This document shows positions 8,711 through 20,104 of a stretch of 28,813 bases of DNA, piece by piece (the first letter of the stretch is position 1; each line of letters starts with the position of its first letter). The notes beneath the pieces are model-generated. The model saw nothing but the letters and a program-made list of their open reading frames with translations, was not told the origin of the DNA and made no database searches. Source of the stretch: a virus; the IMG/VR virus record IMGVR_UViG_3300009506_000146, positions 1 to 28,813 of that record. The stretch is one strand, 5' to 3'. The position numbers and the translations under genes were made by a program.

Positions 8711-8712
8711 AA

Positions 8713-9395: not shown

Positions 9396-9470
9396 ATAAG
9401 TGACTCATAGACAACGAGTTATAAAAGCGCGCAGCGCACATACGTAACATAAAGAGAGTCAACGACTTAC
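9396..9470 (+). repeat. Quadripartite intergenic element, copy 4
   Basis: ATAAGTGACTCA, ACAACGAGTTAT, centre GCGCGCAGCGCAC, GTAACATAAAGA, TCAACGACTTAC. Confidence 0.7.
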
Positions 9471-9483
9471 GTCGCTGACTCTC
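9454..9483. terminator. Terminator-like hairpin
   Basis: GAGAGTCA / TGACTCTC with an inner CGAC-TTAC-GTCG, directly after the stop of the minus-strand DUF4313 gene. The loop is half-site 4 of the element. Confidence 0.65.
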
Positions 9484-9489
9484 GTGGAC

Positions 9490-9801: not shown

Positions 9802-9802
9802 C

Positions 9803-10063
9803 TTAATCCTCCCTCCAGTTAAAGTAAAAGCGAGGCATGTGCTGGAATTGCAAGCTGCCCTTTTTACCCGTGGCTTTTTCGGTGGCCACAATGTAAGGGG
9901 CCATGAATCCAATCACATCAAAATCCTCACCTAATTGCTTGGTATCCCAAACGCGCCCATGGAGCGCTTCGAGCCGTTGACGTTCAGAAGCTTTGTCGTC
10001 GCTTTGAACCTGTGAATTAATCTCAGCTACTTGCTGCCGTCGAATTTGTTCTGTATCATCCAT
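9803..10063 (-). CDS. Conserved small phage protein, leaderless
   Basis: An 86-residue protein starting MDDTEQIRRQQVAEINSQ: a charged helical N-terminal half and a C-terminal part with FDVIGFMAPYIVATEKATG followed by GSLQFQHMPRFYF. The GF-AP...GSL-F-H-PRFYF pattern recurs in phage hypothetical proteins. The start is fixed by the promoter; the frame extends six codons upstream but only into the -10 box. Confidence 0.65.
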   Translation of the reverse strand: MDDTEQIRRQQVAEINSQVQSDDKASERQRLEALHGRVWDTKQLGEDFDVIGFMAPYIVATEKATGKKGSLQFQHMPRFYFNWRED

Positions 10064-10069
10064 AACATG

Positions 10070-10097
10070 AAGATAGCACAAGATAGTAAGTAGTCAA
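10070..10097 (-). promoter_or_regulatory. Promoter for a leaderless mRNA (10063 gene)
   Basis: Minus strand TTGACT, 16 bases, extended -10 TGC-TATCTT (10075-10070), six bases, ATG 10063. Confidence 0.8.
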
Positions 10098-10122
10098 CAA
10101 AGTTTTTTATTTTTTTTAGCTA

Positions 10123-10151
10123 TTGACATCTTCATAAAAATAGATTATTAT
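10123..10151 (+). promoter_or_regulatory. Promoter for a leaderless mRNA (10160 gene)
   Basis: TTGACA (10123-10128), 17 bases, TATTAT (10146-10151), eight bases, ATG. It is divergent from the 10070 promoter, with 25 bases between the -35 boxes. Confidence 0.75.
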
Positions 10152-10159
10152 ATTCGCAT

Positions 10160-10438
10160 ATGGATGAACAAGCTTTTCTAGTGCAAGCGTTTGGCTATTG
10201 GGGCACGGGTCCCACGCTAAAATCTGCCGCGCACAATTGTCATAGGGCAGGCGCGGGTCGAACGGAGCGCGCCGTGGCTCATTTGGTAATAGGCGACGCG
10301 CACCCCACTATTGTCAATGATGGCATGAACATCGAACTTAAACACGACTCCAAGATTTATAAGCTTGGCGCGGGTTTCAGCATCGGTACCCTAATGAGGT
10401 TGGAAGATGATAACCACCAAAAGATACAGTCAACTTAA
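10160..10438 (+). CDS. Hypothetical protein (92 aa), leaderless
   Basis: A 92-residue protein starting MDEQAFLVQAFGYWGTGPTL, with AHNCHRAGAGRTERAVAHLV in the middle. The Gly-rich and His-rich segments suggest a compact fold, but no family is recognised. First gene of a three-gene run; the next gene overlaps it by 32 bases. Confidence 0.6.
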   Translation: MDEQAFLVQAFGYWGTGPTLKSAAHNCHRAGAGRTERAVAHLVIGDAHPTIVNDGMNIELKHDSKIYKLGAGFSIGTLMRLEDDNHQKIQST

Positions 10439-10832
10439 GCGCAAACTTGCGGCATTCGAAGTTTGGCGCAATGGGCGTAATGGTTACAATATTACGGACG
10501 TGCCCGCCCATCTTCGCGTAAGTAATAGGCAGCGTTCCTCCGTGGAGGTCTATGAATTCGTCCACAGCCCGCCTAAGAAAATGCTGTGTTACGTCAGGCG
10601 CAATCTTGTAGGTCCCGGTGTAGTAGACCGCAGGGTTGAGGTTACCACATGGACTGGGCAGATTATTGGCTATGGCCATCTTGGTCGCATGTATCGGTGT
10701 GGTCGGTCTGATAGATGGCATAATAAGTCTCTCAGGTACCCTATTGAGTTTGATGGTATTAATAACTGTAAATATCGCGGCACGTATTACATGAGTGCTG
10801 GCGACTACGCAAGAGTAAGGAGGGTAAAATGA
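10407..10832 (+). CDS. Hypothetical basic protein (141 aa)
   Basis: A 141-residue very basic protein starting MITTKRYSQLKRKLAAFEVW, rich in Arg, Tyr and Gly, with repeated beta-like stretches (KKMLCYVRRNLVGPGVVDRR, VEVTTWTGQIIGYGHLGR). Nucleic-acid binding is plausible from charge only. It overlaps the upstream gene by 32 bases (a purine-rich GGAAG precedes the ATG) and the next gene by four bases (ATGA). Confidence 0.55.
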   Translation: MITTKRYSQLKRKLAAFEVWRNGRNGYNITDVPAHLRVSNRQRSSVEVYEFVHSPPKKMLCYVRRNLVGPGVVDRRVEVTTWTGQIIGYGHLGRMYRCGRSDRWHNKSLRYPIEFDGINNCKYRGTYYMSAGDYARVRRVK

Positions 10833-11044
10833 ATGATGGTATCCAGATAAAACACGGGCGAGTTGTTGGGCGCGATGGCGAGATTCAAGAAGCGGAAATC
10901 GGTTTCTGCCCTGAGTGCAAGTGCGAGACATTTATCTTAATGAAGATAAAAGGCCACCAGCATATCCAATGCTCGCGCTGTGGTACCATGTATTGCGACG
11001 GTACCTGCCATGTTGACAAAACCAAAGACCTATCGGTCAATTAA
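10829..11044 (+). CDS. Zinc-ribbon small protein
   Basis: A 71-residue protein with CPECKCE (28-34), then CSRCGTMYC (48-56) and CH at 60-61: two CxxC knuckles about 20 residues apart, a zinc-ribbon pattern. Such small ribbons bind nucleic acid or proteins. The start has a perfect site AGGAGG five bases upstream and overlaps the previous stop. A hairpin and element copy 5 follow. Confidence 0.65.
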   Translation: MNDGIQIKHGRVVGRDGEIQEAEIGFCPECKCETFILMKIKGHQHIQCSRCGTMYCDGTCHVDKTKDLSVN

Positions 11045-11047
11045 CCT

Positions 11048-11077
11048 AGCGGCAACACTCCCGAACCTGTTGCCGCT
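11048..11077 (+). terminator. Terminator-like hairpin
   Basis: AGCGGCAAC / GTTGCCGCT, a 9-bp stem without a T run, three bases after the stop. Confidence 0.55.
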
Positions 11078-11136
11078 CAACAACTTACAATTTCGCGCAG
11101 CCCGCTTTCACAAACGCCTCACCACCAAGGGTTTAT
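11077..11136 (+). repeat. Quadripartite intergenic element, copy 5
   Basis: TCAACAACTTAC, centre TCGCGCAGCCCGC, ACAAACGCCTCA, CCAAGGGTTTAT; the first half-site is replaced by the hairpin arm. Confidence 0.65.
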
Positions 11137-11154
11137 ATTTATTTATTTTTATTG

Positions 11155-11183
11155 TTGACAACATAGATTAGTGCGGCTATCTT
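11155..11183 (+). promoter_or_regulatory. Promoter for a leaderless mRNA (11191 gene)
   Basis: TTGACA (11155-11160), 17 bases, TATCTT (11178-11183), seven bases, ATG 11191. Earlier TTG and ATG triplets fall inside or before the expected +1. Confidence 0.75.
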
Positions 11184-11190
11184 GCATGGT

Positions 11191-11562
11191 ATGGAACTTA
11201 AACTTGAAATCAATTCAAAAGCAGTTAAGGATAATCAGCCACTGGCTTATGCTGGCATTATGATTACTCCTAACATTAACGAAAACTATTGGATAATGCG
11301 TGTCAAGGTCAACAAAAAACAAGCCGTGGTTGCTTTCCCTAAGTTTGGTACCATAGGTATTGGCTTTATGATTGAAGCAAGAGACTGGAATACAAACTTG
11401 CCTTGGTGCTGCAACCCGCAAACAATTTATGACCATATCAAGGATAACAAGGGTGGACATGCTTCCCCTGAAGATTGTATTAAAGCTATCAAGATGTTGA
11501 GGCAAGCTATCTCGGACGCCAAACTTGACCCCAAAAACTCTATTGACAACCCCATAAGATAG
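11191..11562 (+). CDS. Hypothetical protein (123 aa), leaderless
   Basis: A 123-residue protein starting MELKLEINSKAVKDNQPLAY, with a beta-rich front (WIMRVKVNKKQAVVAFPKFG) and a helical end (SPEDCIKAIKMLRQAISDAK). No family recognised. The last codons (Ile-Asp-Asn) contain the TTGACA of the next promoter, so the coding end doubles as regulatory DNA. Confidence 0.6.
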   Translation: MELKLEINSKAVKDNQPLAYAGIMITPNINENYWIMRVKVNKKQAVVAFPKFGTIGIGFMIEARDWNTNLPWCCNPQTIYDHIKDNKGGHASPEDCIKAIKMLRQAISDAKLDPKNSIDNPIR

Positions 11563-11570
11563 GATATGTT
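11543..11570 (+). promoter_or_regulatory. Promoter for a leaderless mRNA (11577 gene)
   Basis: TTGACA (11543-11548), 16 bases, TATGTT (11565-11570), six bases, ATG. The -35 box lies in the upstream coding end. Confidence 0.75.
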
Positions 11571-11576
11571 ACTTGT

Positions 11577-12143
11577 ATGAATATGACATCTAGTCAATCG
11601 TGGGCGATATTCTGCTTATCCAAGATAGATGTGCGGAATACTGAAATCGACATCAAAGCGGCTGGCAACCTGATTGAAGCTTTGAAAACAGGCGGCGACA
11701 GTTTCGATGCAGCTATTAAATTGCTTAAAGAAACTCCCGGCGCAATCATCAAGGGCGAAGCAAAACCTAAACAGGATTGGCGCAAGCTCTACACTGAGGC
11801 GCACGATGCTGGTATGATAGCGGGCGCAAAGGCGCTACCTACTCCTATGACCGTCCAGCAGCACGCGTCGCCATTCAACGACAATTCCCCTGTGGTGAAG
11901 GAATGGCACGTGCCCGAGGGTGCCTGTGGTTTCGCTTGGGTCACTATCAGGCCGGGGACTTGTAGCTTTGCTAAATGGCTCAAGAAGAACGACCTTGCCA
12001 GTGTGGCCTATGGTGGCGGGATGCAAGTTTGGGTACACCAGTTTAACCAGTCGGTAGAGCGCAAGGAAGCCTATGCGCACGCGTTTGCCGAAGTGTTGCG
12101 CCTGCATGGTATCAAAGCTTATGCTGGTTCAAGATTGGACTAA
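11577..12143 (+). CDS. Conserved phage protein (188 aa), unknown role
   Basis: A 188-residue protein. The N-terminal third is helical (NLIEALKTGGDSFDAAIKLL). The C-terminal two thirds carry a recurrent phage pattern: AHDAGMIAGAKALPTPMTV, VPEGACGFAWVTIRPG, FAKWLKKND, YGGGMQVWVHQFNQS, KEAYAHAFAEVLR and a final GIKAYAGSRLD. I recognise this pattern from phage hypothetical proteins but know of no function. Leaderless start; likely co-transcribed with 12149. Confidence 0.65.
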   Translation: MNMTSSQSWAIFCLSKIDVRNTEIDIKAAGNLIEALKTGGDSFDAAIKLLKETPGAIIKGEAKPKQDWRKLYTEAHDAGMIAGAKALPTPMTVQQHASPFNDNSPVVKEWHVPEGACGFAWVTIRPGTCSFAKWLKKNDLASVAYGGGMQVWVHQFNQSVERKEAYAHAFAEVLRLHGIKAYAGSRLD

Positions 12144-12148
12144 TTAAA

Positions 12149-12340
12149 ATGACCCCCGAAGCACAATACTTGATTCGACGCGAAGAGTTTGCCAAATTTC
12201 GCGCTTGGTTACATTCTTGCATGTTTATTGGCCATAAGCACGGCGCAAGTAATGCGAAACTACGTAAAGTTTGCCGTGAAGTTTGCAAACACTTAGAGGA
12301 CACATACGCGTGGAAAGTTACTAAAATTACTAGGAAATAA
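12149..12340 (+). CDS. Small basic protein (63 aa)
   Basis: A 63-residue basic helical protein starting MTPEAQYLIRREEFAKFRAW, with KLRKVCREVCKHLEDTYAWK. It starts five bases after the previous stop without a Shine-Dalgarno site. Charge suggests nucleic-acid binding. The probable structured RNA at 12347 begins seven bases after its stop. Confidence 0.55.
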   Translation: MTPEAQYLIRREEFAKFRAWLHSCMFIGHKHGASNAKLRKVCREVCKHLEDTYAWKVTKITRK

Positions 12341-12346
12341 ACTTTT

Positions 12347-12486
12347 GGCCCGTCCAGTGAGTAATCACTAGGGAATAGCAGTCTATAGGGCTAGGTCGTG
12401 TAAATTAACGGCAATAAATACACGGTAACCATGGTGAATACTATAGGCGGAAGTAGCGAAAGCAAAGCTTCTCTTAATGGCGGGCC
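12347..12486 (+). ncRNA. Candidate structured RNA, unknown class (140 bases)
   Basis: The ends pair as an 8-bp closing stem (GGCCCGTC 12347-12354 with GGCGGGCC 12479-12486, one G-U). Inside are an AGTGA-GTAA-TCACT hairpin (12356-12369), ATAG-CAGT-CTAT (12375-12386), a CGTGTA / TACACG stem (12397-12424) and a GAAG...CTTC stem topped by GC-GAAA-GC, a GNRA tetraloop (12450-12471). The sequence ACTTTTT follows, so the closing stem could also act as a terminator. It fills the leader of the 12508 gene: a cis-regulatory RNA or an independent RNA. I cannot match it to a known class. Confidence 0.5.
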
Positions 12487-12507
12487 ACTTTTTAACTAAC
12501 AATAAAT

Positions 12508-12909
12508 ATGAAAATCACATTAACAGGCATTACTCAAAACGAGTTCATCAAACGCGCTTATTTCTTGGCCTATCAGGCGGCGGGGCCAGAACAAGGCATG
12601 GGCGTCTTTCAACGTCGCAATGGTGCGACAGAAGACGAGATATACCATAACGTCTGCACAGGCGGCGATTATCTTTTTGGTGCGGCGGAAGAAGATAAGA
12701 CACAAGGTGAGACAGAGTTTTATGGCGACTACGTCTTTGGCCGCATGCTGAAACTTGGTATGAAGACTTACAAGGGTGATTCTGTTGTCTTCCTAAATGA
12801 TGATTGGAGGGAAGACTATCAGGCTTTCTGTACTAAATATCCTACTCCTAAAGAATTGGCGCAAGCTGTTGTTGATTCTCTGGGCAAGGGGTCATTCATA
12901 GCAACGTAA
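12508..12909 (+). CDS. Hypothetical protein (133 aa)
   Basis: A 133-residue acidic protein starting MKITLTGITQNEFIKRAYFL. The middle has GMGVFQRRNGATEDEIYHNV and GDYVFGRMLKLGMKTYKGD; the end is helical (TPKELAQAVVDSLGKGSF). No family recognised. No Shine-Dalgarno site (ACAATAAATATG). Its leader contains the candidate structured RNA and a T run, so expression may depend on read-through there. Confidence 0.6.
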   Translation: MKITLTGITQNEFIKRAYFLAYQAAGPEQGMGVFQRRNGATEDEIYHNVCTGGDYLFGAAEEDKTQGETEFYGDYVFGRMLKLGMKTYKGDSVVFLNDDWREDYQAFCTKYPTPKELAQAVVDSLGKGSFIAT

Positions 12910-12930
12910 TAAACGCGTAAGTTAGCCAAC

Positions 12931-13005
12931 GCAAGTCGTTGGCTATCAACGCTTTGCAAAAGTGGGCAGCACGCATTCATAACACCATGAGGGGCAGGCA
13001 CTTAG
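12931..13005 (+). repeat. Quadripartite intergenic element, copy 6
   Basis: GCAAGTCGTTGG, CTA, TCAACGCTTTGC, centre GTGGGCAGCACGC, ATAACACCATGA, then GCAGGCACTTAG inside a hairpin. It lies between convergent genes. Confidence 0.7.
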
Positions 13006-13015
13006 CCCGCCCCTC
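12989..13015. terminator. Bidirectional terminator between convergent genes
   Basis: GAGGGGC / GCCCCTC stem, 7 bp, with TTTT a few bases after it on the plus strand. Confidence 0.7.
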
Positions 13016-13031
13016 TGCTCTTTTGGTTTAC

Positions 13032-13481
13032 TTAGTGCTCGCTTGGCAAGTATGCCACGTTGACAATCTTGCCATTTCCCAGTTCGGTAGGACCTACCCA
13101 GATTTTAGCCTCGGGCAGGGTATCGAATGGAAAGTCAGTAGTGGCAATTTCCTGCAAGATAGCAGGGTTGCCGCTATCACGTTCACATAGCGCGTAAGCG
13201 CTTGGGTGTGGCTCCAGATGCATTGCCAACAGGTTTTTAAACCGTGGCGACGCGGCGGGGTCTGTGGGGTAAGGTCGGAGCGTCCAAAACTGCAAGTCCT
13301 TTAGCATGTCATCGTGGCTTGCAATGCCCTGATAACTGCCGATAAGGTCCAGCAGCCAATAGGCATCAGCGTTTTGCACAAGGTGCTTTACCCCGTCTGT
13401 ATAAACCAGCTTTGGGGAGTGTTGGTAATAGTGTTCGGTTCCAGTGAAACCGTCCAATCGAGTTAGAGCTTCTTTATTCAT
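13032..13481 (-). CDS. DUF6876-like protein, leaderless
   Basis: A 149-residue protein. The order LTRLDGFTGTEHYYQH, YTDGVKHLVQNADAYWLLDLI, DLQFWTLRPYP, IATTDFPFDTLPE and a final VAYLPSEH matches the DUF6876 pattern (FTGT-YR, TDG, AYWLLD, TDFP, LPSE). The family occurs in phages and mobile elements and its role is unknown. The promoter places +1 within three bases of the ATG. Confidence 0.7.
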   Translation of the reverse strand: MNKEALTRLDGFTGTEHYYQHSPKLVYTDGVKHLVQNADAYWLLDLIGSYQGIASHDDMLKDLQFWTLRPYPTDPAASPRFKNLLAMHLEPHPSAYALCERDSGNPAILQEIATTDFPFDTLPEAKIWVGPTELGNGKIVNVAYLPSEH

Positions 13482-13490
13482 AGCTACTAT

Positions 13491-13518
13491 ATCTTAACAC
13501 AGGGTTAGAAGTTGTCAA
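13491..13518 (-). promoter_or_regulatory. Near-leaderless promoter of the DUF6876 gene
   Basis: Minus strand TTGACA (13518-13513), 16 bases, TAAGAT (13496-13491), nine bases, ATG 13481. Confidence 0.7.
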
Positions 13519-13721
13519 AGGTTTCTTGCATATTCGCGCACTTTTTTTATGGCCCATTCTTGGCTATAGTCGGTAGTAACTTGAAAGCCCGCCTTAAGCC
13601 ATCCGTCTATCTCATCATTAATCCAGCAGCGGATTGCGGTTTCAGTGTCGTCACCTGTGGCAACTACACGATAAGCAACGTCGCGATAAATACCGTCCAA
13701 CGGATATCTGCCATTTCTCAT
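13515..13721 (-). CDS. Small protein (68 aa), leaderless
   Basis: A 68-residue protein starting MRNGRYPLDGIYRDVAYRVV, ending EWAIKKVREYARNL; two short parts, beta then helix. No family recognised. The promoter of the downstream gene begins inside its last codons (13513-13518), an economy also seen at 7306 and 11543. No terminator separates the two genes. Confidence 0.6.
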   Translation of the reverse strand: MRNGRYPLDGIYRDVAYRVVATGDDTETAIRCWINDEIDGWLKAGFQVTTDYSQEWAIKKVREYARNL

Positions 13722-13727
13722 AATAAC

Positions 13728-13755
13728 ATAATAACATCACCCTAGAGAAAAGCAA
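13728..13755 (-). promoter_or_regulatory. Promoter for a leaderless mRNA (13721 gene)
   Basis: Minus strand TTGCTT (13755-13750), 16 bases, TATTAT (13733-13728), six bases, ATG. Confidence 0.65.
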
Positions 13756-13763
13756 GAAATTTA

Positions 13764-13835
13764 TTCTGTTGATTATCAACGAGTTACAATTGCGCACAGC
13801 ACGCTTTAGTAACTACAACAGACTCAGGCACTTAC
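13764..13835 (+). repeat. Quadripartite intergenic element, copy 7
   Basis: ...CTGTTGA, TTA, TCAACGAGTTAC, centre GCGCACAGCACGC, GTAACTACAACA, GAC, TCAGGCACTTAC. Confidence 0.7.
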
Positions 13836-13848
13836 ACCTGAGTGTTGT
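13815..13848. terminator. Hairpin after the 13852 gene
   Basis: ACAACA-GACTCAGG pairs with CCTGAGT-GTTGT, a long imperfect stem directly after the minus-strand stop; its loop is half-site 4 of copy 7. Confidence 0.6.
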
Positions 13849-13851
13849 ATG

Positions 13852-14463
13852 TCAGATACCGTGGGCCTTATTAAAGTTCTCTGTTACTTGATTCAAGACC
13901 AAGAGACAACTTTGGCAGATTGTGCTAGGTGGCAAGTTCCAACCTAACATATGCCCGCCGCATTTGACGCAGTGAGAACCATCGCAACTATCATCATTAC
14001 ACTGCTTAGTTTCGGCGCGGCATTTGCGGAACTCTTCCTGCAATGTATCCTCTAATTGGTGTCGTAGCACCATGTAATGCGCCTCAATCCATGAAGGGGC
14101 CAGAGGATTAGGCGCTTCATATGCATAACCTTCACGTTCGCACCTTTCAATTTCAGCTTCATTCTCCATAACCTCCTCCAGAGAAGGCTGCTGAATTTCT
14201 TTGAACTCAGTATCATCAATCTCGCGGACCTCGCGCAAAGAATCGATGATGGCCAAGCATTCACTCTGATAGTTCACATTAGGCACGGAGAAACCATCGG
14301 GCGAAGTTGCAAAACCGGGGACGATACGTCCATTACTAAACGTGCGCCCATCCACGGTTTGCGCCACGATTTCAGAGTTAAATACAAACAAGGGTCCATC
14401 TTCACCGCCCACTTGATGCAGCGGGCCTTCCATCACCGTCCACCGTTTAACTTTATGTATCAT
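13852..14463 (-). CDS. Protein with C-terminal zinc-ribbon-like Cys cluster
   Basis: A 203-residue protein. ATG 14463 (MIHKVKRWTVMEG) is chosen from the promoter; a longer frame starts inside the -10 region. The N-terminal half is beta-like (GPLFVFNSEIVAQTVDGRTF), the middle is acidic and helical, and the C-terminal part has CNDDSCDGSHCVKCGGHM and, later, CQSC: a CxxC...CxxC pattern expected to bind zinc. The N-terminal part resembles phage proteins with W-V-GP...V-N, but I cannot assign a family. Confidence 0.6.
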   Translation of the reverse strand: MIHKVKRWTVMEGPLHQVGGEDGPLFVFNSEIVAQTVDGRTFSNGRIVPGFATSPDGFSVPNVNYQSECLAIIDSLREVREIDDTEFKEIQQPSLEEVMENEAEIERCEREGYAYEAPNPLAPSWIEAHYMVLRHQLEDTLQEEFRKCRAETKQCNDDSCDGSHCVKCGGHMLGWNLPPSTICQSCLLVLNQVTENFNKAHGI

Positions 14464-14471
14464 AGGAAAGC

Positions 14472-14500
14472 AAAATAGCATACTTATCAATAAATATCAA
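14472..14500 (-). promoter_or_regulatory. Near-leaderless promoter (14463 gene)
   Basis: Minus strand TTGATA (14500-14495), 17 bases, TGC-TATTTT (14477-14472), eight bases, ATG 14463. Confidence 0.7.
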
Positions 14501-14529
14501 GTGTGATTCTGAAGTTTTTATTCTCTGTT

Positions 14530-14604
14530 GTAAGTCATTGATGGCGAGGCAGTTGGGTTTGTGCGCAGCGCGAATTCATAAACGATTGAAGAGCAAGCAC
14601 TTGC
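14530..14604 (+). repeat. Quadripartite intergenic element, copy 8
   Basis: GTAAGTCATTGA, TGG, CGAGGCAGTTGG, centre GTGCGCAGCGCGA, ATAAACGATTGA, AGA, GCAAGCACTTGC; the last half-site makes a hairpin (GCAC / GTGC). Confidence 0.7.
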
Positions 14605-14622
14605 GTGCCTGCCCAGTTGTGA

Positions 14623-14826
14623 TTAAGTAATGCTTTGCAATCTTGCTCCAGCAAGGCGTTTGATGGCAGCTATCTGCGCGCCTAATGCCTCCATGTTATC
14701 GTTGAGGAACCCAAGATAGGTGTTTTGGCCCTTGTGAAGTTCAGCGGCCAATTCCGCTCTGTGGTTCTCTTCGTTCGAGAACTTATCCAGTAAGTAAATA
14801 AGCTTTTGATAGTCGTCTCTGTTCAT
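14623..14826 (-). CDS. Small helical protein (67 aa), leaderless
   Basis: A 67-residue all-helical protein starting MNRDDYQKLIYLLDKFSNEE, with heptad-like spacing of Leu and Ala (ELAAELHKGQ, MEALGAQIAAIKRLAGARL), which suggests a coiled coil or dimer. No family recognised. Single-gene unit between elements 8 and 9. Confidence 0.6.
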   Translation of the reverse strand: MNRDDYQKLIYLLDKFSNEENHRAELAAELHKGQNTYLGFLNDNMEALGAQIAAIKRLAGARLQSIT

Positions 14827-14832
14827 ATCTCT

Positions 14833-14860
14833 AAGATAGCATATTATGTGAAGTTAGCAA
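14833..14860 (-). promoter_or_regulatory. Promoter for a leaderless mRNA (14826 gene)
   Basis: Minus strand TTGCTA (14860-14855), 16 bases, TGC-TATCTT (14838-14833), six bases, ATG. Confidence 0.7.
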
Positions 14861-14870
14861 CATTTTTATT

Positions 14871-14940
14871 TCGTTGTCTACCAATGACTTAGGAAAGTGT
14901 GCAGAGCACTTATGTAAATCAGTAAAAGGCAGGCACTTGC
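14871..14940 (+). repeat. Quadripartite intergenic element, copy 9
   Basis: TCGTTGTC, CCAATGACTTAG, centre GTGTGCAGAGCAC, GTAAATCAGTAA, GCAGGCACTTGC. Confidence 0.7.
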
Positions 14941-14945
14941 CTGCC
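14928..14945. terminator. Compact hairpin after the 14953 gene
   Basis: GGCAGG-CACTTG-CCTGCC, seven bases after the minus-strand stop. Confidence 0.55.
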
Positions 14946-14952
14946 CGTACTG

Positions 14953-15297
14953 TTATGCGTTCTTGGTTACTGGTTTTTGCGCCGTGTAGTAATGCTTCAG
15001 GAGTTCGAGTCTAGCCGCCTTGTACTCCTTGTTTAACTGCCCAAGTTTTTCGCGCAGGGGGTTTGCGCCTGTCTCTGTTTCAGGGTCTAAGGCAACCCAT
15101 TCGCCAAAGAAGTCATAGGTAGTAGAGTTATCCAGCGTTTTGTTTCTGGATAAGTTGACCCCAATAGGTATCCCACGTTTGCGGGCATCTGGTACGCCAG
15201 CTTTGGTTAGCTGGTCTTTCAGCCAAAATCTCTGCCGCTCAAAGTCAACGTATGCGGCATCCAGTGTAGAGCCACTTGATATGTTAATGAATTTCAT
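14953..15297 (-). CDS. Hypothetical protein (114 aa), near-leaderless
   Basis: A 114-residue basic protein starting MKFINISSGSTLDAAYVDFE; the middle has KAGVPDARKRGIPIGVNLSRN and the end is a Lys-rich helix (REKLGQLNKEYKAARLELLK). No family recognised. ATG 15297 is chosen because it follows the -10 box by nine bases; the frame extends upstream into the promoter. Confidence 0.6.
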   Translation of the reverse strand: MKFINISSGSTLDAAYVDFERQRFWLKDQLTKAGVPDARKRGIPIGVNLSRNKTLDNSTTYDFFGEWVALDPETETGANPLREKLGQLNKEYKAARLELLKHYYTAQKPVTKNA

Positions 15298-15306
15298 AAC
15301 TATCTT

Positions 15307-15334
15307 AAGATAGCACAAGATACTAATATTGCAA
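15307..15334 (-). promoter_or_regulatory. Near-leaderless promoter (15297 gene)
   Basis: Minus strand TTGCAA (15334-15329), 16 bases, TGC-TATCTT (15312-15307), nine bases, ATG. TATCTTAAGATA forms a perfect palindrome across the -10 box. Confidence 0.7.
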
Positions 15335-15354
15335 GAACTTTTTTACATTTTTAT

Positions 15355-15425
15355 TTCGTTGTGTATCAACAACTTAGGAAAGCGCACAGCACGAATTCGT
15401 AAACAGCTATGGGGCAGGCCCTTGT
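15355..15425 (+). repeat. Quadripartite intergenic element, copy 10
   Basis: TTCGTTGTG, TA, TCAACAACTTAG, centre GCGCACAGCACGA, GTAAACAGCTAT, GCAGGCCCTTGT. Confidence 0.7.
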
Positions 15426-15440
15426 GGTTGCCCGCCCCAT
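15409..15440. terminator. Hairpin after the 15471 gene
   Basis: ATGGGGC-GG / CC-GCCCCAT imperfect stem, downstream of the minus-strand gene. Confidence 0.5.
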
Positions 15441-15470
15441 GCCGACTATGACCCTGAACCGAAAATGGAC

Positions 15471-15674
15471 TTACTCAGCCCTGCCAATGATATGACCATT
15501 GGCATAGACCCCGGTAATGAGTCGGCGCTCTTCGACCTCGATAGTAGCATAGGAGCCGTTCTCCTTCACGTACCTCTTGGCCTCACGTAAGGCGCTTTTA
15601 AAACTACCACGCCTTGCGATAACTTCACCAGCAGTTACAACCAAGAACCTGTCATCAGGACTATCAGTGCTCAT
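15471..15674 (-). CDS. Small protein (67 aa), coupled to 15671 gene
   Basis: A 67-residue protein starting MSTDSPDDRFLVVTAGEVIA, with ARRGSFKSALREAKRYVKEN and VEERRLITGVYANGHIIG: an alpha/beta small protein of unknown function. Its ATG overlaps the stop of the upstream gene (ATGA) and has AAAGGA upstream, so translation is coupled and Shine-Dalgarno-assisted. Confidence 0.6.
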   Translation of the reverse strand: MSTDSPDDRFLVVTAGEVIARRGSFKSALREAKRYVKENGSYATIEVEERRLITGVYANGHIIGRAE

Positions 15675-15886
15675 CGTATGATTCCTTTCTCTCTTAAGTG
15701 TTTCACGTATTGGTCATAGACCCGTTGTTTGTTGCCACGAAAACCCATCCGTTTAATCTGGGCATAAGCTGAAGGCCCATGGCATTTCATGCCTTTAAGT
15801 TCCAGCTTGAGCATGAATTTCAATCTAATCAAGCGAAAACCTTCGATTAAGTCAGGTGTATCCGCGACTGTAATTTGAGTTTTCAT
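15671..15886 (-). CDS. Small basic protein (71 aa)
   Basis: A 71-residue basic protein starting MKTQITVADTPDLIEGFRLI, followed by RLKFMLKLELKGMKCHGPSAYAQIKRMGF and a Lys/Arg-rich end. No family recognised, although the basic helices suggest nucleic-acid binding. First gene of a two-gene unit; the leader is about five bases, longer than at the strictly leaderless genes. Confidence 0.6.
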   Translation of the reverse strand: MKTQITVADTPDLIEGFRLIRLKFMLKLELKGMKCHGPSAYAQIKRMGFRGNKQRVYDQYVKHLREKGIIR

Positions 15887-15897
15887 TCTCTGCTAAC

Positions 15898-15925
15898 AAC
15901 ATACCACTTAGTAACTAGAAGTCAA
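15898..15925 (-). promoter_or_regulatory. Promoter of the 15886 gene
   Basis: Minus strand TTGACT (15925-15920), 16 bases, TATGTT (15903-15898), eleven bases, ATG. Confidence 0.65.
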
Positions 15926-15945
15926 CAAAAAGTTTACAATTTTAT

Positions 15946-16016
15946 TTCGTTGATTATCAAGGACTTATGATTGCGGACAGCACGCTTTCATAACCTAAAG
16001 AACGAGAGGCACTTGC
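15946..16016 (+). repeat. Quadripartite intergenic element, copy 11
   Basis: TTCGTTGA, TTA, TCAAGGACTTAT, centre GCGGACAGCACGC, ATAACCTAAAGA, AGAGGCACTTGC. A GAGAGG...CCCCTC-type stem follows to 16034 and probably ends the 16047 transcript. Confidence 0.7.
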
Positions 16017-16046
16017 GCGCCCCTCGCTCTCGACTATGGCACTAAC

Positions 16047-16562
16047 CTAATCCTTTGAGGCCAGTCGACCTTCGAACTTATGGTCCTTGTTGTCGAGGCC
16101 CACGCGCCATTCACCCAAACCCAAAGGTTCGCGAGTGATAGGAGCCACAAAGATGACATTCCGCTCGCCATCATAGACAGCAACCGACAGCACTTCTTCG
16201 CGCTCGCTGTAGTTTGCGATGCCTTGCTTCATGATTTGGTTGACGGTTTCTGTTGGATTCTTCTCCTTGGAAGCGTCTACCTTGGCAAACCATGCCTCAG
16301 TAATGAAGCACACCACAGGGTAAGTCTGCCGTAAGTGGCGCAGGCCCGCCGCCAACAGGTCTTTGTTCTCATAGACCTCCGCAGGTACGACATATGCGTC
16401 CAATTGTGCTCTGCCCTCCTTGTCCTTTATCTCAGGATTGGGCGCGAGACACAGGGGAGTGACCTTGCCCTCATTAAGGTTGAAGTTCTTGGCCGCGCCT
16501 TCGAGTGCAACCGTTGTCAGTTTTTGAGCCGATTCACTTAGAGTTTCGATAATATCTTTCAT
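16047..16562 (-). CDS. Hypothetical protein (171 aa)
   Basis: A 171-residue protein starting MKDIIETLSESAQKLTTVAL. The central part (VPAEVYENKDLLAAGLRHLR, YPVVCFITEAWFAKVD) and the later EEVLSVAVYDGERNVIFVAP with WRVGLDNKDHKFEGR form an alpha/beta domain. I do not recognise the family. A -10-like GGC-TATCTT lies two bases before the ATG but no -35 box fits, so the promoter is unclear. Confidence 0.6.
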   Translation of the reverse strand: MKDIIETLSESAQKLTTVALEGAAKNFNLNEGKVTPLCLAPNPEIKDKEGRAQLDAYVVPAEVYENKDLLAAGLRHLRQTYPVVCFITEAWFAKVDASKEKNPTETVNQIMKQGIANYSEREEVLSVAVYDGERNVIFVAPITREPLGLGEWRVGLDNKDHKFEGRLASKD

Positions 16563-16605
16563 ACAAGATAGCCTAACATACTTCTGATAAAAAACAAGAA
16601 ATTTA

Positions 16606-16677
16606 TTACGTTGATAGTCAACGGTTTAGGACTCCGCGCAGCACGCAAATGTAAGTATAAAAACAACAGGCGCTTAG
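16606..16677 (+). repeat. Quadripartite intergenic element, copy 12
   Basis: TTACGTTGA, TAG, TCAACGGTTTAG, centre CCGCGCAGCACGC, GTAAGTATAAAA, CAGGCGCTTAGG. Confidence 0.7.
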
Positions 16678-16697
16678 GTTCATGACTCCCAAGCGCC
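16669..16697 (-). terminator. Terminator-like hairpin
   Basis: GGCGCTT / AAGCGCC; read on the minus strand it is followed by TGTTGTTTTTA. Confidence 0.65.
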
Positions 16698-16741
16698 CAA
16701 AACAACTAGTAATTTTGGTGTTTTTTAGATTGACCTACGCT

Positions 16742-16849
16742 ACGGAGGCTTTGCTTGCTCCGTCATGTGGTCCTTATTGACCTTTATAAGTCCGCGTAAA
16801 CACCTAAACGCGGCTGATTGAGGTATGCTGTATAGTATCGGCGGCATAC
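16742..16849. ncRNA. Array of four hairpins, possible RNA
   Basis: ACGGAG / CTCCGT (16742-16763), GGTC / GACC (16769-16782), CCGCGT / ACGCGG (16792-16813) and GTATGC / GCATAC (16823-16849) lie in series in 108 bases without a gene. On the minus strand they follow the 16856 stop and precede the terminator at 16669-16697. They are either a structured 3' untranslated region or a separate RNA; no promoter was found. Confidence 0.35.
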
Positions 16850-16855
16850 GCAAAA

Positions 16856-17050
16856 TTATTGTAAAATAGCTGGTATCTTCGACGGTTTTATATCCATCTT
16901 AACTAACGCCAAATGAGCATTGGTATAGTTTTCTTCTGCCATTTGACTGGCGCGGGCATCTGTCAATATTCGATTGCGCCAAGCAAGTTCTATCATTTCT
17001 TTATTAAACTGATAAGTTTGCTGTATCAGGGTTATGTTCCCCGGTATCAT
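16856..17050 (-). CDS. Small helical protein (64 aa), near-leaderless
   Basis: A 64-residue helical protein starting MIPGNITLIQQTYQFNKEMI, continuing LAWRNRILTDARASQMAEEN. ATG 17050 is chosen over a start 13 codons upstream because that longer frame runs through the promoter. No family recognised. Confidence 0.6.
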   Translation of the reverse strand: MIPGNITLIQQTYQFNKEMIELAWRNRILTDARASQMAEENYTNAHLALVKMDIKPSKIPAILQ

Positions 17051-17058
17051 ACGCAATA

Positions 17059-17086
17059 AAGATAGCCTATTACCTAAAGATGTCAA
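17059..17086 (-). promoter_or_regulatory. Near-leaderless promoter (17050 gene)
   Basis: Minus strand TTGACA (17086-17081), 16 bases, GGC-TATCTT (17064-17059), eight bases, ATG. Confidence 0.75.
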
Positions 17087-17126
17087 CATAAATAGTGTTC
17101 TTTTCGATAAAAAGATACATTCTATT

Positions 17127-17198
17127 ATACGTTGATTATCAAGGGTTTACATAAGCGTGCAGCGCGAATTTGCAAAGAGTTGTAGTAGAAGCACTTGC
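17127..17198 (+). repeat. Quadripartite intergenic element, copy 13
   Basis: TACGTTGA, TTA, TCAAGGGTTTAC, centre GCGTGCAGCGCGA, GCAAAGAGTTGT, AGT, AGAAGCACTTGC. Confidence 0.7.
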
Positions 17199-17209
17199 GA
17201 GAGTAGCTG

Positions 17210-17446
17210 TCAATAGTTGTCTGGTATGTCGTAATACCCTTCTTCGCGGGCGTACGCCTCATAACCAGAATCAATGAGGCGGGCATTCCTATGTTCTGCG
17301 CTTTCCCCGCGCTTCTTGGTCTTGGGTATGCCTGTGACACAGGCTTTGCATTTGCCCTCGTGCGCACGCGCATACTTCTTCGAAGTGGAGCGCCCACAAT
17401 CCACGCAGGGTACCAGATACTGAGCAACCCAATGATGAGTCTTCAT
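17210..17446 (-). CDS. Conserved zinc-knuckle phage protein
   Basis: A 78-residue protein: CVDCGRSTSKKYARAHEGKCKAC (14-36), two CxxC pairs 16 residues apart, then NARLIDSGYEAYAREEGYYDIPD at the end. The whole pattern (CxxCGR-TS-KYA-AHEGKCK-C ... IDSG-AYAREEG-YDIPD) recurs in unrelated phages. A structural zinc site is expected; function unknown. The -10 box ends five bases before the ATG. Confidence 0.7.
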   Translation of the reverse strand: MKTHHWVAQYLVPCVDCGRSTSKKYARAHEGKCKACVTGIPKTKKRGESAEHRNARLIDSGYEAYAREEGYYDIPDNY

Positions 17447-17451
17447 GCCTT

Positions 17452-17480
17452 AATATACCATCTTATAAGTAATCTGTCAA
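17452..17480 (-). promoter_or_regulatory. Promoter for a leaderless mRNA (17446 gene)
   Basis: Minus strand TTGACA (17480-17475), 17 bases, TATATT (17457-17452), five bases, ATG. Confidence 0.75.
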
Positions 17481-17489
17481 GTAGTTAGA

Positions 17490-17561
17490 AATCGTTGATT
17501 ATCAACAACTTAGTAAAGTGTGCTGTGCGAAAGTGTAAACCCCTGAGTATCAACAACTTAC
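17490..17561 (+). repeat. Quadripartite intergenic element, copy 14
   Basis: ATCGTTGA, TTA, TCAACAACTTAG, centre GTGTGCTGTGCGA, GTAAACCCCTGA, GTA, TCAACAACTTAC. The centre repeats AAAGTGT directly instead of inverted, as in copy 16. Confidence 0.7.
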
Positions 17562-17588
17562 AACTTAGTGCAGTTCGTCACAAAGTTA

Positions 17589-17617
17589 TTGCATGTTACT
17601 TGCTCTGAGGGTAGGAT
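17589..17617 (+). promoter_or_regulatory. Near-leaderless promoter (17627 gene)
   Basis: TTGCAT (17589-17594), 17 bases, TAGGAT (17612-17617), nine bases, ATG. Confidence 0.65.
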
Positions 17618-17626
17618 TGGGACGTT

Positions 17627-17917
17627 ATGAAGACTATCCTACTTACTGTTATTCACGTAGCTGATAGGCCGTTTCACTACGCTGTTGAGTATCTGCACGG
17701 CACGCGGGTTGTTTGCGTGCTTCGTTCCAAACGCACTACTAAGGTGTTCATTGGTGTGTGTATTACGCTTGTGGGTAGCACTATGGCCACCCACCCTGTA
17801 GCTTTCGTCCCTCACTTCATTTGGGATGCTATAAGCTACACGTTGCATGGCTATGGGGCGTTGCCCATGATTAAGCTGTTTTGTCGCAAGCTGAATCTGG
17901 AGTCCATCGACGAGTAA
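17627..17917 (+). CDS. Small hydrophobic-core protein, paralogue 1
   Basis: A 96-residue protein about 70% identical to the 18590 gene with no gaps. Shared blocks: MKTILLT-IH, IGVCITLVGSTMATHP, PHFIWDAI-YTLHGYGA and NLES at the end. The hydrophobic stretch at 41-62 may enter the membrane; the region before it (VLRSKRTTK) is basic. No family recognised. The gene, its upstream element and its downstream terminator all have counterparts at 18590, so the whole cassette was duplicated. Confidence 0.65.
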   Translation: MKTILLTVIHVADRPFHYAVEYLHGTRVVCVLRSKRTTKVFIGVCITLVGSTMATHPVAFVPHFIWDAISYTLHGYGALPMIKLFCRKLNLESIDE

Positions 17918-17935
17918 GATTCCCATTCAACGCAC

Positions 17936-17964
17936 CCCGTCAAAATATCATTGACGGGATTTTT
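17936..17964 (+). terminator. Terminator, GTCAA...TTGAC type
   Basis: CCCGTCAA / TTGACGGG, 8-bp stem, then ATTTTTA. Confidence 0.75.
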
Positions 17965-17984
17965 AGCGCCCCAACATTACTTCT

Positions 17985-18059
17985 ATAAGTTATTGATTAT
18001 CAATGGTTTACGAATGTGGACAGCACGCTTTTGTAAGTCTTTGATACATAAGGACTTAG
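17985..18059 (+). repeat. Quadripartite intergenic element, copy 15
   Basis: ATAAGTTATTGA, TTA, TCAATGGTTTAC, centre GTGGACAGCACGC, GTAAGTCTTTGA, TAC, ATAAGGACTTAG. Confidence 0.75.
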
Positions 18060-18069
18060 AACTCTGTTG

Positions 18070-18098
18070 TTGACAAGTGATACTATGTAGATTATCCT
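18070..18098 (+). promoter_or_regulatory. Near-leaderless promoter (18108 gene)
   Basis: TTGACA (18070-18075), 17 bases, TATCCT (18093-18098), nine bases, ATG. Confidence 0.7.
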
Positions 18099-18107
18099 AT
18101 ACTTACT

Positions 18108-18374
18108 ATGACAACTTATGTGAGACAGACTCAAGAAATGACAGTGTGCGGACGTCCTATCGATATCGAAGCAGAGTTCGCAGTAACGGGCCATGACATC
18201 GAAGTCTCAGAGGGGCCATTCCCCACTGTGGCAGAGCAGCCCACTATGTGGGCGCTGGAGGAGCTTGTTATTGAGCACTTAGACGCCCTTAAGGTGTTTG
18301 ACCTGAACCGTGTCTATGAAGATGCGGCTGGCCAAGCTATAGACTACGCTACTGACTACTGTCAGGATAGATAA
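18108..18374 (+). CDS. Small acidic protein (88 aa)
   Basis: An 88-residue acidic protein starting MTTYVRQTQEMTVCGRPIDI: a beta-like front (EAEFAVTGHDIEVSEGPFPT) and a helical acidic end (ALEELVIEHLDALKVFDLNR). No family recognised. It sits as a separate unit, with its own promoter, element and terminator, between the two duplicated cassettes. Confidence 0.6.
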   Translation: MTTYVRQTQEMTVCGRPIDIEAEFAVTGHDIEVSEGPFPTVAEQPTMWALEELVIEHLDALKVFDLNRVYEDAAGQAIDYATDYCQDR

Positions 18375-18391
18375 TAACGCAAATACAAACA

Positions 18392-18418
18392 CCCCCGTTA
18401 AAATAACATTGACGGGGG
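18392..18418 (+). terminator. Terminator-like hairpin
   Basis: CCCCCGT / ACGGGGG around TAAAATAACATTG, related in sequence to the hairpins at 17936 and 18897; no T run follows. Confidence 0.6.
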
Positions 18419-18440
18419 AGACCTACCTATAAACACTTAC

Positions 18441-18515
18441 GTAAGTACTTGAGTATCAACAGTTTACGAAAGTGTGCTGTGCGAAAGTGTAAGTCCTTGT
18501 GCTGCAACAACTTAC
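18441..18515 (+). repeat. Quadripartite intergenic element, copy 16
   Basis: GTAAGTACTTGA, GTA, TCAACAGTTTAC, centre GTGTGCTGTGCGA, GTAAGTCCTTGT, GCTG, CAACAACTTAC. Confidence 0.75.
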
Positions 18516-18552
18516 ACGATTACAAAAAAAGTTACTTTTTATAACAAACATG

Positions 18553-18580
18553 TTGACTCTGGGGGTTGACATGTTAGACT
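18553..18580 (+). promoter_or_regulatory. Near-leaderless promoter (18590 gene)
   Basis: TTGACT (18553-18558), 16 bases, TAGACT (18575-18580), nine bases, ATG. A second TTGACA lies in the spacer. Confidence 0.65.
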
Positions 18581-18589
18581 AGGGTTACT

Positions 18590-18880
18590 ATGAAGACTAT
18601 CCTACTTACCTTCATCCACGAGTCTGAAATGCCCATCCATGCCCTTGTCGAGCGCCTTCATCGCACGCGCCTTGTGCGTATAGTGCGCAGCAAACGCGCC
18701 AGCAAGGTCTGTATAGGCGTCTGTATCACCTTGGTAGGTTCTACCATGGCAACCCATCCCATTGCGATGATACCGCATTTTATCTGGGATGCCATTGCTT
18801 ACACCTTGCACGGGTACGGGGCCATCCCTGTCATCAAGATATTCTGCGAGAAATTCAACCTCGAAAGCTTAGACGACTAA
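18590..18880 (+). CDS. Small hydrophobic-core protein, paralogue 2
   Basis: A 96-residue protein, paralogue of the 17627 gene. Conservation is highest in residues 42-57 (IGVCITLVGSTMATHP) and in PHFIWDAI-YTLHGYGA, and lowest in residues 11-31, so the hydrophobic core is under constraint. The codon choices differ (more G/C in third positions here), showing that the duplication is not recent. Function unknown. Confidence 0.65.
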   Translation: MKTILLTFIHESEMPIHALVERLHRTRLVRIVRSKRASKVCIGVCITLVGSTMATHPIAMIPHFIWDAIAYTLHGYGAIPVIKIFCEKFNLESLDD

Positions 18881-18896
18881 ACGCCCGCTTTGCACA

Positions 18897-18925
18897 CCCT
18901 GTCAAAATACATTGACAGGGCTTTT
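18897..18925 (+). terminator. Terminator, GTCAA...TTGAC type
   Basis: CCCTGTCAA / TTGACAGGG, 9-bp stem, then CTTTTC; same design as 17936. Confidence 0.75.
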
Positions 18926-18945
18926 CGTGCCCAGAGGGCGTTTAC

Positions 18946-19020
18946 GTAAGTCGTTGAGTATCAACGGGTTACGTTTGTGTGCTGCACACTTTCGTAAGTA
19001 GTTGAAGGGCAGGCACTTAC
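18946..19020 (+). repeat. Quadripartite intergenic element, copy 17
   Basis: GTAAGTCGTTGA, GTA, TCAACGGGTTAC, centre GTGTGCTGCACAC, GTAAGTAGTTGA, AGGG, CAGGCACTTAC. One of the two most regular copies. Confidence 0.8.
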
Positions 19021-19030
19021 GTGCCCGCCC
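19007..19030. terminator. Hairpin after the 19038 gene
   Basis: GGGC-GGCAC-TTAC-GTGCC-GCCC: a long stem whose 5' arm contains half-site 4 of copy 17. Confidence 0.65.
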
Positions 19031-19037
19031 ATTCTAA

Positions 19038-19250
19038 CTAGTAATTGTGGCCAAAGTAGGCGTCAAGGTCCTGCCCCGTGGGGTCGTCGTCCATTACCCG
19101 ATGCATCCCCCTGATACAGGACTTGCAGAGGGAAGAACGCGAATTACGCGGCAGACGCCTGCCACAACGCGCACAAGGGTATCTGCCCTCAGAATCAGGG
19201 CACTCACCAGCCGCGTGTCCGCAGCATGGCCAATCTTCACAACGTGACAT
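19038..19250 (-). CDS. Double zinc-knuckle small protein
   Basis: A 70-residue protein with two Cys-rich units: RCEDWPCCGHAAGECPDSEG (3-22) and CARCGRRLP...SSLCKSC (26-45). The order RCED-PCCGH...CP...GR-PC-RCG...SS-C--C is recurrent in phages and plasmids; zinc binding is expected and its partner is unknown. It has a strong site AGGAG five bases before the ATG and follows the 19259 gene closely, so it is the second gene of that unit. Confidence 0.7.
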   Translation of the reverse strand: MSRCEDWPCCGHAAGECPDSEGRYPCARCGRRLPRNSRSSLCKSCIRGMHRVMDDDPTGQDLDAYFGHNY

Positions 19251-19258
19251 AGTAACTC

Positions 19259-19687
19259 CTATTCGTAATGGGGTGCGGGTTCATGAGAGTTATCGAGGCT
19301 CCCCATAGTCTCCTCAACAACAATTTCCAACGTGCCGCCATCATCCCACCCCGTGGGAATGTAACCCTCAGGGCAGTTAGCGGGGCAGGGTTCGCTATCC
19401 TCGTCAGGCAGGCTAGCCATCGCACGGGCACGCTGAGGCGCTTCTTGCGCGTTCTGGCGCTCTACCTCCACCTTGGCGCTTTCGAGCCACTGGGAGGCAG
19501 CCTCGTGCGAAAGAAAGGGCTTACTACCCACAAGCTCGCGACGGTCATACCACCAGCCGCCCTCCTCAGGCCCGCCAAAACAGCGGCAATGCCTGTAGAC
19601 AGAAACGAAGGCAGGCTGTGATTGCACGTAATCAGGCTGCGCGGCAACATAGTCCGCGAGCCGTTCCATCAGTTCATGGTTTTGCAT
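19259..19687 (-). CDS. Conserved phage protein (142 aa), near-leaderless
   Basis: A 142-residue protein starting MQNHELMERLADYVAAQPDY. The motif CFGGPEEGGWWYDRRELV (about 36-53) and the C-terminal HYE recur in phage hypothetical proteins: GGPEEGGWWYD is a recognisable signature, function unknown. The central part is a charged helix (AASQWLESAKVEVERQNAQE), the end is acidic. First gene of a two-gene unit with 19038. Confidence 0.65.
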   Translation of the reverse strand: MQNHELMERLADYVAAQPDYVQSQPAFVSVYRHCRCFGGPEEGGWWYDRRELVGSKPFLSHEAASQWLESAKVEVERQNAQEAPQRARAMASLPDEDSEPCPANCPEGYIPTGWDDGGTLEIVVEETMGSLDNSHEPAPHYE

Positions 19688-19696
19688 AGCAAGGCC

Positions 19697-19725
19697 AAGA
19701 TATCACAGGTTCGAATTAATATCAA
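19697..19725 (-). promoter_or_regulatory. Near-leaderless promoter (19687 gene)
   Basis: Minus strand TTGATA (19725-19720), 17 bases, TATCTT (19702-19697), nine bases, ATG. Confidence 0.65.
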
Positions 19726-19789
19726 TAAATATCTTCCCATAATAGGAGTAAATACGCCAAATATCCTGTCGGCCCGTCGCTTGACGTTC

Positions 19790-19864
19790 GTAAGTCGTTG
19801 ACTATCAAGGGGTTATGAAAGTGTGCCCCGCACTTTTGTAAGTCGTTGATAATCAGGCACTTAC
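19790..19864 (+). repeat. Quadripartite intergenic element, copy 18
   Basis: The clearest copy: GTAAGTCGTTGA (19790), CTA, TCAAGGGGTTAT, centre GTGTGCCCCGCAC, GTAAGTCGTTGA (19838), TAA, TCAGGCACTTAC. Half-sites 1 and 3 are identical. Confidence 0.8.
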
Positions 19865-19898
19865 AACTTCGCATGTGAACTTTTCCGTCAAGTAATGA

Positions 19899-19914
19899 GG
19901 GACACGCGTGTCCC
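19899..19914. terminator. Perfect 16-base palindrome, possible terminator
   Basis: GGGACACGCGTGTCCC, 30 bases after the minus-strand microgene at 19945. It has no loop and no T run, so a protein site is also possible. Confidence 0.4.
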
Positions 19915-19944
19915 GCTCACACGTGCCCCCCGGTGACTATGCAA

Positions 19945-20016
19945 CTACTTGCGCGGGAAAGCCTTAGGTAGAATAGCCCACAGCGTCAAGAGTACTATAA
20001 TTGCCATGATTAGCAT
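19945..20016 (-). CDS. 23-residue membrane microprotein
   Basis: One hydrophobic helix, MLIMAIIVLLTLWAILP, then KAFPRK. A purine-rich site (GAAAGG) lies nine bases upstream of the ATG. It shares the ML-I start and PRK end with the 8642-8710 microprotein. No other gene lies in this gap; the 20105 gene is 88 bases upstream on the same strand. Confidence 0.5.
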   Translation of the reverse strand: MLIMAIIVLLTLWAILPKAFPRK

Positions 20017-20104
20017 TGTCTCGCCTTTCTTTCTTGTGGGATTCTTGGCAAAATGAACCATACAAGTACAACGTGAAACCCACTATAAAGAATTAGTAAT
20101 GTTG

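Follow-up and report, generated by a model that had tools for sequence, protein, structure and literature searches.

A repeated quadripartite element that probably bounds exchangeable gene modules in the accessory zone of a phage

Here we describe a 76-bp quadripartite element that recurs between the genes of the virus genome IMGVR_UViG_3300009506_000146, an IMG/VR record. The window analysed is this entire, complete record of 28,813 bases. The element probably acts as a composite boundary between the modules of an accessory zone, and recombination between its copies probably shuffles these modules. In phages sharing the element type, breakpoints are concentrated in elements, deletions have left chimeric elements, modules have been reordered and one clade displays an inversion. 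The initial annotation of the window had pointed to a repeated quadripartite element between small genes. The element is real: it is present in 18 copies, all of them intergenic.

An orientation-aware matrix separates the copies clearly from background, with 69 bits for the weakest copy and −10 bits for the next best site, and nhmmer run on the window returned the same number of sites (E values of 1e-13 to 1e-20). Every copy (18/18) lies between open reading frames accepted as genes, and 13 of the 18 fall inside 12900–20020. Each is composed of two 27-bp dyads (GTAANNNNTTGA-N3-TCAANNNNTTAC) flanking a GC-rich core, so that four half-sites of alternating orientation surround the core (window consensus TgTAAGTCGTTGATTATCAACGGGTTACGAAAGTGtGCAGCGCGCATTCGTAAGTcgTTGAG.GgCAGGCACTTAC). 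The repeat stops before the −35 box, and its distance to the promoter varies. Its orientation is that of transcription in most gaps, the exceptions being 17984 and 18440; since the element is nearly symmetric, orientation is weak evidence. Searches against Rfam and for tRNAs gave no match.

A DNA search of INPHARED with the window found no match, and the exact window-element pattern together with three protein queries (RuvB-like, the gene A pair and ERCC4) found no relatives among viral contigs. Because the window is without a close relative, the alignment proposed in the initial annotation, which asked whether breakpoints between related phages lie inside the element, was carried out with other phages that have the dyad. 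Breakpoints there fall in elements far above expectation, a result that holds for phages sharing the element type, none of them close to the window.

The first group comprises six related contigs (~73–87% nucleotide identity) that have the same dyad spacing, 48, as the window. Gene order in this 48 clade is mostly conserved and no inversion was seen among the six contigs. Of its 27 unique clean indel joints, 13 are in elements, against 2.75 expected, and none of 20,000 rotations gave as high a number. In other lineages 20 of 39 joints are in elements (4.3 expected), and 16 have an element at either end. Deletions have left chimeric elements in which the copies from the two sides are joined in register. 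For example, five phages of the 48 clade have an ArdC-like gene (g13) that the sixth (G003) lacks, and the single element of G003 at this locus is made up of the left element on one side and the right element on the other. A second gene, g31, lies between elements in two phages, occupies another place in a third and is absent from others.

Breakpoints might also gather in the element if it were purely regulatory or architectural (an operator, an insulator or a nucleoid-protein site) and did not promote recombination, breakpoints being tolerated in intergenic DNA and selection keeping one intact element. We judge this somewhat unlikely. Single dyads in bacterial chromosomes fit such a role, as do the elements carried by all sizeable gaps of a second clade (the 41/42 clade, below) and the half-sites, which are strongly conserved without covariation between arms, as expected of protein sites. 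However, when only non-coding joints of the 48 clade are counted, elements are still favoured (11 of 15 versus 5.4 expected, P 0.003), and simple tolerance does not predict in-register chimeras.

Two further arrangements were observed in the 48 clade. Pairs of full elements lie 159–162 bp apart, mostly without a convincing gene between them (G001 9316/9478, G003 17934/18093 and G019 28957/29117); these might be empty cassettes or a second type of joint. Unpaired dyads, that is, half elements, are found immediately upstream of minus-strand genes.

The second clade, with spacings of 41/42, consists of G009, G014, G008, G015 and G025. Here element-bounded modules are reordered between fixed anchor genes, and gene adjacency is retained in 8 of 34 cases across an element versus 49 of 67 without one (P 2e-6). 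One gene family (family 8; 51–84% protein identity) has the forward orientation in G009, and G014, G008 and G015 carry it in reverse. In three comparisons the inverted homology begins and ends at the outer edges of elements. A reversed gene pair in G008 (3/1) is a weaker case, with short proteins of 35–57% identity. With one strong and one weak case, we count flipping as supported in one clade. In the 58-spacing clade, synteny shows a gene replaced between elements and no clear inversion. The initial annotation had suggested that the elements are joints at which genes are gained, lost or flipped. Gain and loss, and relocation in addition, are thus supported in other phages by indel joints, chimeras and reordered modules, and flipping is supported in the 41/42 clade only.

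The position of the crossovers hints at site-specific exchange. At most loci of the 48 clade, the crossover that best fits the chimera lies in the 21-nt core, and at several of them it coincides with the exact midpoint of the core (38 of 75); one chimera of the 41 clade also has its crossover at the core centre. An integron-like phage cassette system, in which a dedicated site-specific recombinase would act on the core and the dyads would serve as accessory sites for bending, would account for this and for the lineage specificity of the cores, which would be expected of specificity determinants. We nevertheless regard it as improbable. The mapping rests on ~5 independent informative events, several at one locus, and in other clades many splits either carry no information or do not lie in the core. 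The palindromy of the cores is barely higher than that of shuffled sequences (0.60 versus 0.56), and homologous recombination could equally start in the shared GC-rich core. No tyrosine integrase (PF00589) was detected in any of 31 records, which are mostly incomplete, whereas the control genomes were all positive; serine recombinases and transposases were not searched for. The fuller version, an integron-independent cassette system spread over many uncultured phage lineages, in which a dedicated recombinase would cut the centre of the lineage-specific GC core, paired IHF-type bends would serve as an assembly platform and modules would be exchanged and inverted, seems to us quite unlikely.

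True integron cassettes, whose attC sites would recombine as folded single strands, are highly improbable. The modules are cassette-like and the element between genes is quasi-palindromic, but its ends read GTAA..TTAC and not RYYYAAC..GTTRRRY (half-site frequencies give GTAA..TTGA and TCAA..TTAC), and the modules have their own promoters and occur in either orientation. The arm positions are without covariation (observed 0.51–0.57 versus null 0.54–0.60), which argues against a folded strand, and an RNA-structure reading of the element was rejected for the same reason. The lack of an integrase and of an attC consensus, stated in the initial annotation, thus holds for the half-site ends and for the 31 records.

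The half-sites themselves fit the IHF consensus WATCAANNNNTTR (PMC4585315), with A/T at the centre in 83%. In 495 dyads outside the search pattern, the position frequencies agree with the consensus at its fixed positions, the weakest being the A before TCAA (~53%). Each dyad places its AA and TT steps at a distance of 9 bp, which is also the distance between the kinks that DNABII proteins introduce (PMC3969353). This suggests that the dyads are sites for an HU/IHF-family protein. No HU or IHF gene was found in 33 phage records; a phage-encoded protein is thereby rejected for the records searched, and we infer that the protein is the host's.

We propose the following mechanism for a shuffling boundary. 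Within the accessory zone, the element would set small transcription modules apart from one another; the host protein most likely binds and bends its outer dyads, which are made of IHF-type half-sites. As the element abuts or overlaps the preceding terminator on one side and the next promoter on the other, each module would be self-sufficient. Copies within a genome share near-palindromic sequence, so two of them can recombine: exchange between copies in the same sense would delete, add or move a module and leave one chimeric element, and exchange between copies in opposite sense would invert it. The enzymes are probably those of general phage or host homologous recombination, which is the economical choice given that a RecA-family gene is present in 6 of 7 records larger than 100 kb. 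The window is assumed to behave like other phages with the element type.

Several points weigh against this proposal. The window itself shows cassette duplication only, and the rearrangements were all found in other phages, whose element is related but not identical; with no close relative, shuffling in the window would follow by analogy. The 48 clade has mostly conserved order and no flips, and its same-strand adjacency shows no effect of the element (P 0.44). In the 41/42 clade every gap of at least 60 bp holds an element, so the effects of element and gap are inseparable. Joints also lie outside elements (14 of 27 in the 48 clade and 19 of 39 in other lineages), and the P values are too small because pairwise comparisons share ancestry. 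The strong flip comes from one family, with the plus orientation in G009 alone. The records are metagenome contigs, in which misassembly at repeats is possible, though the copies differ. The missing HU/IHF gene in the phage records counts on the same side.

The element type is widespread among viral loci. A dyad-pattern scan listed at least 120 stretches; among the matches listed, 99 of 120 loci have at least one element pair and 78 of 120 at least two, and paired elements number at least 329 in at least 98 viral loci. A reversed-pattern control gave 35 stretches, all single, and no pairs. Dyad spacing is lineage-specific and ranges from 38 to 62. Cores, too, are lineage-specific, with a mean of 78% GC versus 38% for dyads and a similarity of 0.69 within loci versus 0.54 between loci. 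A GP88 alignment gave 80 viral loci, of which 5 hold recognisable or analogous elements; in three loci (L021, L052 and L055) the outer half-sites are kept and the core is different.

A dyad element of another kind, GAGAGTTGC..core TTCGGGGTGCCCAA..GCAACTCTC, occurs in ~15 intergenic copies in one viral locus (L008; IMGVR_UViG_3300033996_000957, 8096–19023). Between these copies lie the orthologs of four window genes (5406, 8713, 19038 and 19259), and the same cassettes thus use another element. Single intergenic dyads were also seen in bacterial genomes (L208–L248; Fibrobacter, Akkermansia, Treponema and others), for which the reversed-pattern control count is zero, and these are commoner between convergent than between divergent genes.

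Within the window (Table 1), the initial annotation had read the gaps as a terminator hairpin, the element, a promoter and a leaderless gene. This order applies to a good part of the gaps and not to all. In 14 of 17 gaps the first 70 nt downstream of the stop codon form an unusually stable fold (z ≤ −2.0 relative to mononucleotide shuffles). For many gaps on the minus strand, the terminator hairpin takes its 3′ arm from the outermost half-site, so that terminator and element overlap. Generic scans found only a slight excess of terminators (10 versus 6.7 by chance) and of promoters (14 versus 11.4 by chance). Five genes, starting at 17446, 18108, 18590, 13481 and 19687, have TTGAnn-N16/17-TAnnnT 5–9 nt upstream of the start codon and, judged from this spacing, look leaderless or nearly so; in others the promoter match is weak or absent. 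The start of the gene at 16856–17050 was re-set to the ATG at 17050 because TTGACA-16-TATCTT (17086–17059) lies directly upstream. Self-contained single-gene cassettes had also been proposed, a description that does not extend to the elements at 12930 and 18945, which have convergent genes on either side, or to the two-gene units at 15471–15886 and 19038–19687. The similarity between genes A and A′ extends over the upstream elements, the genes and the downstream terminators, making this one duplicated cassette in the window.

Table 1 Element copies and genes of the element zone in the window
Feature	Position	Strand	Evidence and remarks
Element copy 1	5197–5272	−	nhmmer E 8e-18; orientation from matrix
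Element copy 2	6353–6428	−	Matrix, nhmmer
Element copy 3	8557–8632	−	Matrix, nhmmer
Element copy 4	9395–9470	+	Matrix, nhmmer; outer half-site is 3′ arm, strong hairpin after gene 9490
Element copy 5	11062–11137	−	Matrix, nhmmer
Element copy 6	12930–13005	+	Matrix, nhmmer; convergent genes either side; hairpin AGGGGCGGGC-TAAGT-GCCTGCCCCT overlaps outer half-site
Element copy 7	13760–13835	+	Matrix, nhmmer
Element copy 8	14529–14604	+	Matrix, nhmmer
Element copy 9	14865–14940	+	Matrix, nhmmer; overlaps minus-strand terminator 14947–14930
Element copy 10	15350–15425	+	Matrix, nhmmer
Element copy 11	15941–16016	+	Matrix, nhmmer
Element copy 12	16602–16677	+	Matrix, nhmmer
Element copy 13	17123–17198	+	Matrix, nhmmer
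Element copy 14	17486–17561	+	Matrix, nhmmer; upstream of duplicated gene A
Element copy 15	17984–18059	+	Matrix, nhmmer
Element copy 16	18440–18515	+	Matrix, nhmmer; upstream of duplicated gene A′
Element copy 17	18945–19020	+	nhmmer E 1e-20, best copy; convergent genes either side
Element copy 18	19789–19864	+	Matrix, nhmmer; nearly symmetric, scores on both strands
Small gene, DUF6876 family	13032–13481	−	Own promoter TTGACA-16-TAAGAT
Small gene between elements 13760 and 14529	13852–14463	−	
Small gene between elements 14529 and 14865	14623–14826	−	
Small gene between elements 14865 and 15350	14953–15300	−	
Two-gene unit between elements 15350 and 15941	15471–15886	−	One protein matches phrog_19182
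Small gene between elements 15941 and 16602	16047–16562	−	
Small gene between elements 16602 and 17123	16856–17050	−	Start re-set (see text)
Small gene	17210–17446	−	Promoter TTGACA-17-TATATT 5 nt before ATG (apparently leaderless)
Small gene A	17627–17917	+	71% identical to 18590–18880; terminator 17936–17958
Small gene	18108–18374	+	Promoter TTGACA-17-TATCCT 9 nt before ATG
Small gene A′, duplicate of A	18590–18880	+	Terminator 18897–18920
Two-gene unit between elements 18945 and 19789	19038–19687	−	Both genes have L008 orthologs beside a different element

Elsewhere in the window, repeated promoter-like blocks (TTGACC/TTGACA) lie upstream of left-part genes without the element (1464–1508, 2428–2472, 2791–2825, 4270–4304 and 5315–5349). 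An ERCC4-type nuclease (27102–28049) matches, among phage records, only haloarchaeal tailed viruses, and a 550-residue protein with a proprotein-convertase P-domain (22140–23792) adjoins a PhoH gene.

The element provides a sequence signature by which gene-shuffling zones can be recognised. Within the searches made, the phages concerned are without a cultured member: a 69-nt model of the element had no match in 50,697 phage records. Small unknown genes are found in such zones together with at least one anti-restriction homolog (ArdC), and the elements may therefore help to locate counter-defence genes. The combination of universal dyads with lineage-specific cores makes both the binding protein and the choice between general and site-specific recombination testable.

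Among known systems, integron attC cassettes are similar in that interchangeable genes are separated by a quasi-palindromic site; they differ from the present modules, which have no integrase or attC consensus, no folded-strand covariation, their own promoters and both orientations. Cluster K mycobacteriophages have SAS/ESAS elements (PMC3203893), which are likewise phage-wide, lie upstream of genes and contain imperfect 17-bp inverted repeats separated by a variable spacer. By their description, however, ESAS go with their gene families and are positioned at the start codon, and shuffling is not the finding. RIB/BIME-1 of Escherichia coli, at the 3′ ends of transcription units (Boccard and Prentki 1993, as related in PMC2817692), are also intergenic repeats in which palindromes are combined with IHF-type sites. 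In that account the IHF site lies between two REP palindromes, whereas here IHF-type dyads surround a GC core, in phages. The tailed virus HGTV-1 has a TATA-like box and an inverted repeat before most of its left-half open reading frames, a repeated upstream motif for which gene regulation and shuffling have been proposed (PMC3950731). That it is the same element was rejected, the first 50 kb having no paired dyads and two isolated weak matches only.

The closest known system, judging from the accounts in PMC4503421 and PMC3950731, is found in T4-type phages, whose promoter early stem-loops (PeSLs; Arbiol 2010; Comeau 2014) are mobile regulatory cassettes credited with gene shuffling among related phages. 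As far as those accounts describe them, PeSLs resemble our element in being a recurrent combination of transcription signals located between small accessory genes, in joining a terminator hairpin to a promoter (in the window, the stable hairpins and the promoters before a subset of genes) and in having gene-shuffling breakpoints in the motif, which here are seen in phages sharing the element type and not in the window. As to a T4-type genome, the capsid gene Gp23 was detected in 1 of 31 records and a RecA-family gene in 6 of the 7 large ones. On the same accounts, the present system differs in that the repeat is a quadripartite IHF-type element with the promoter outside the conserved sequence and that a module is inverted in one clade.

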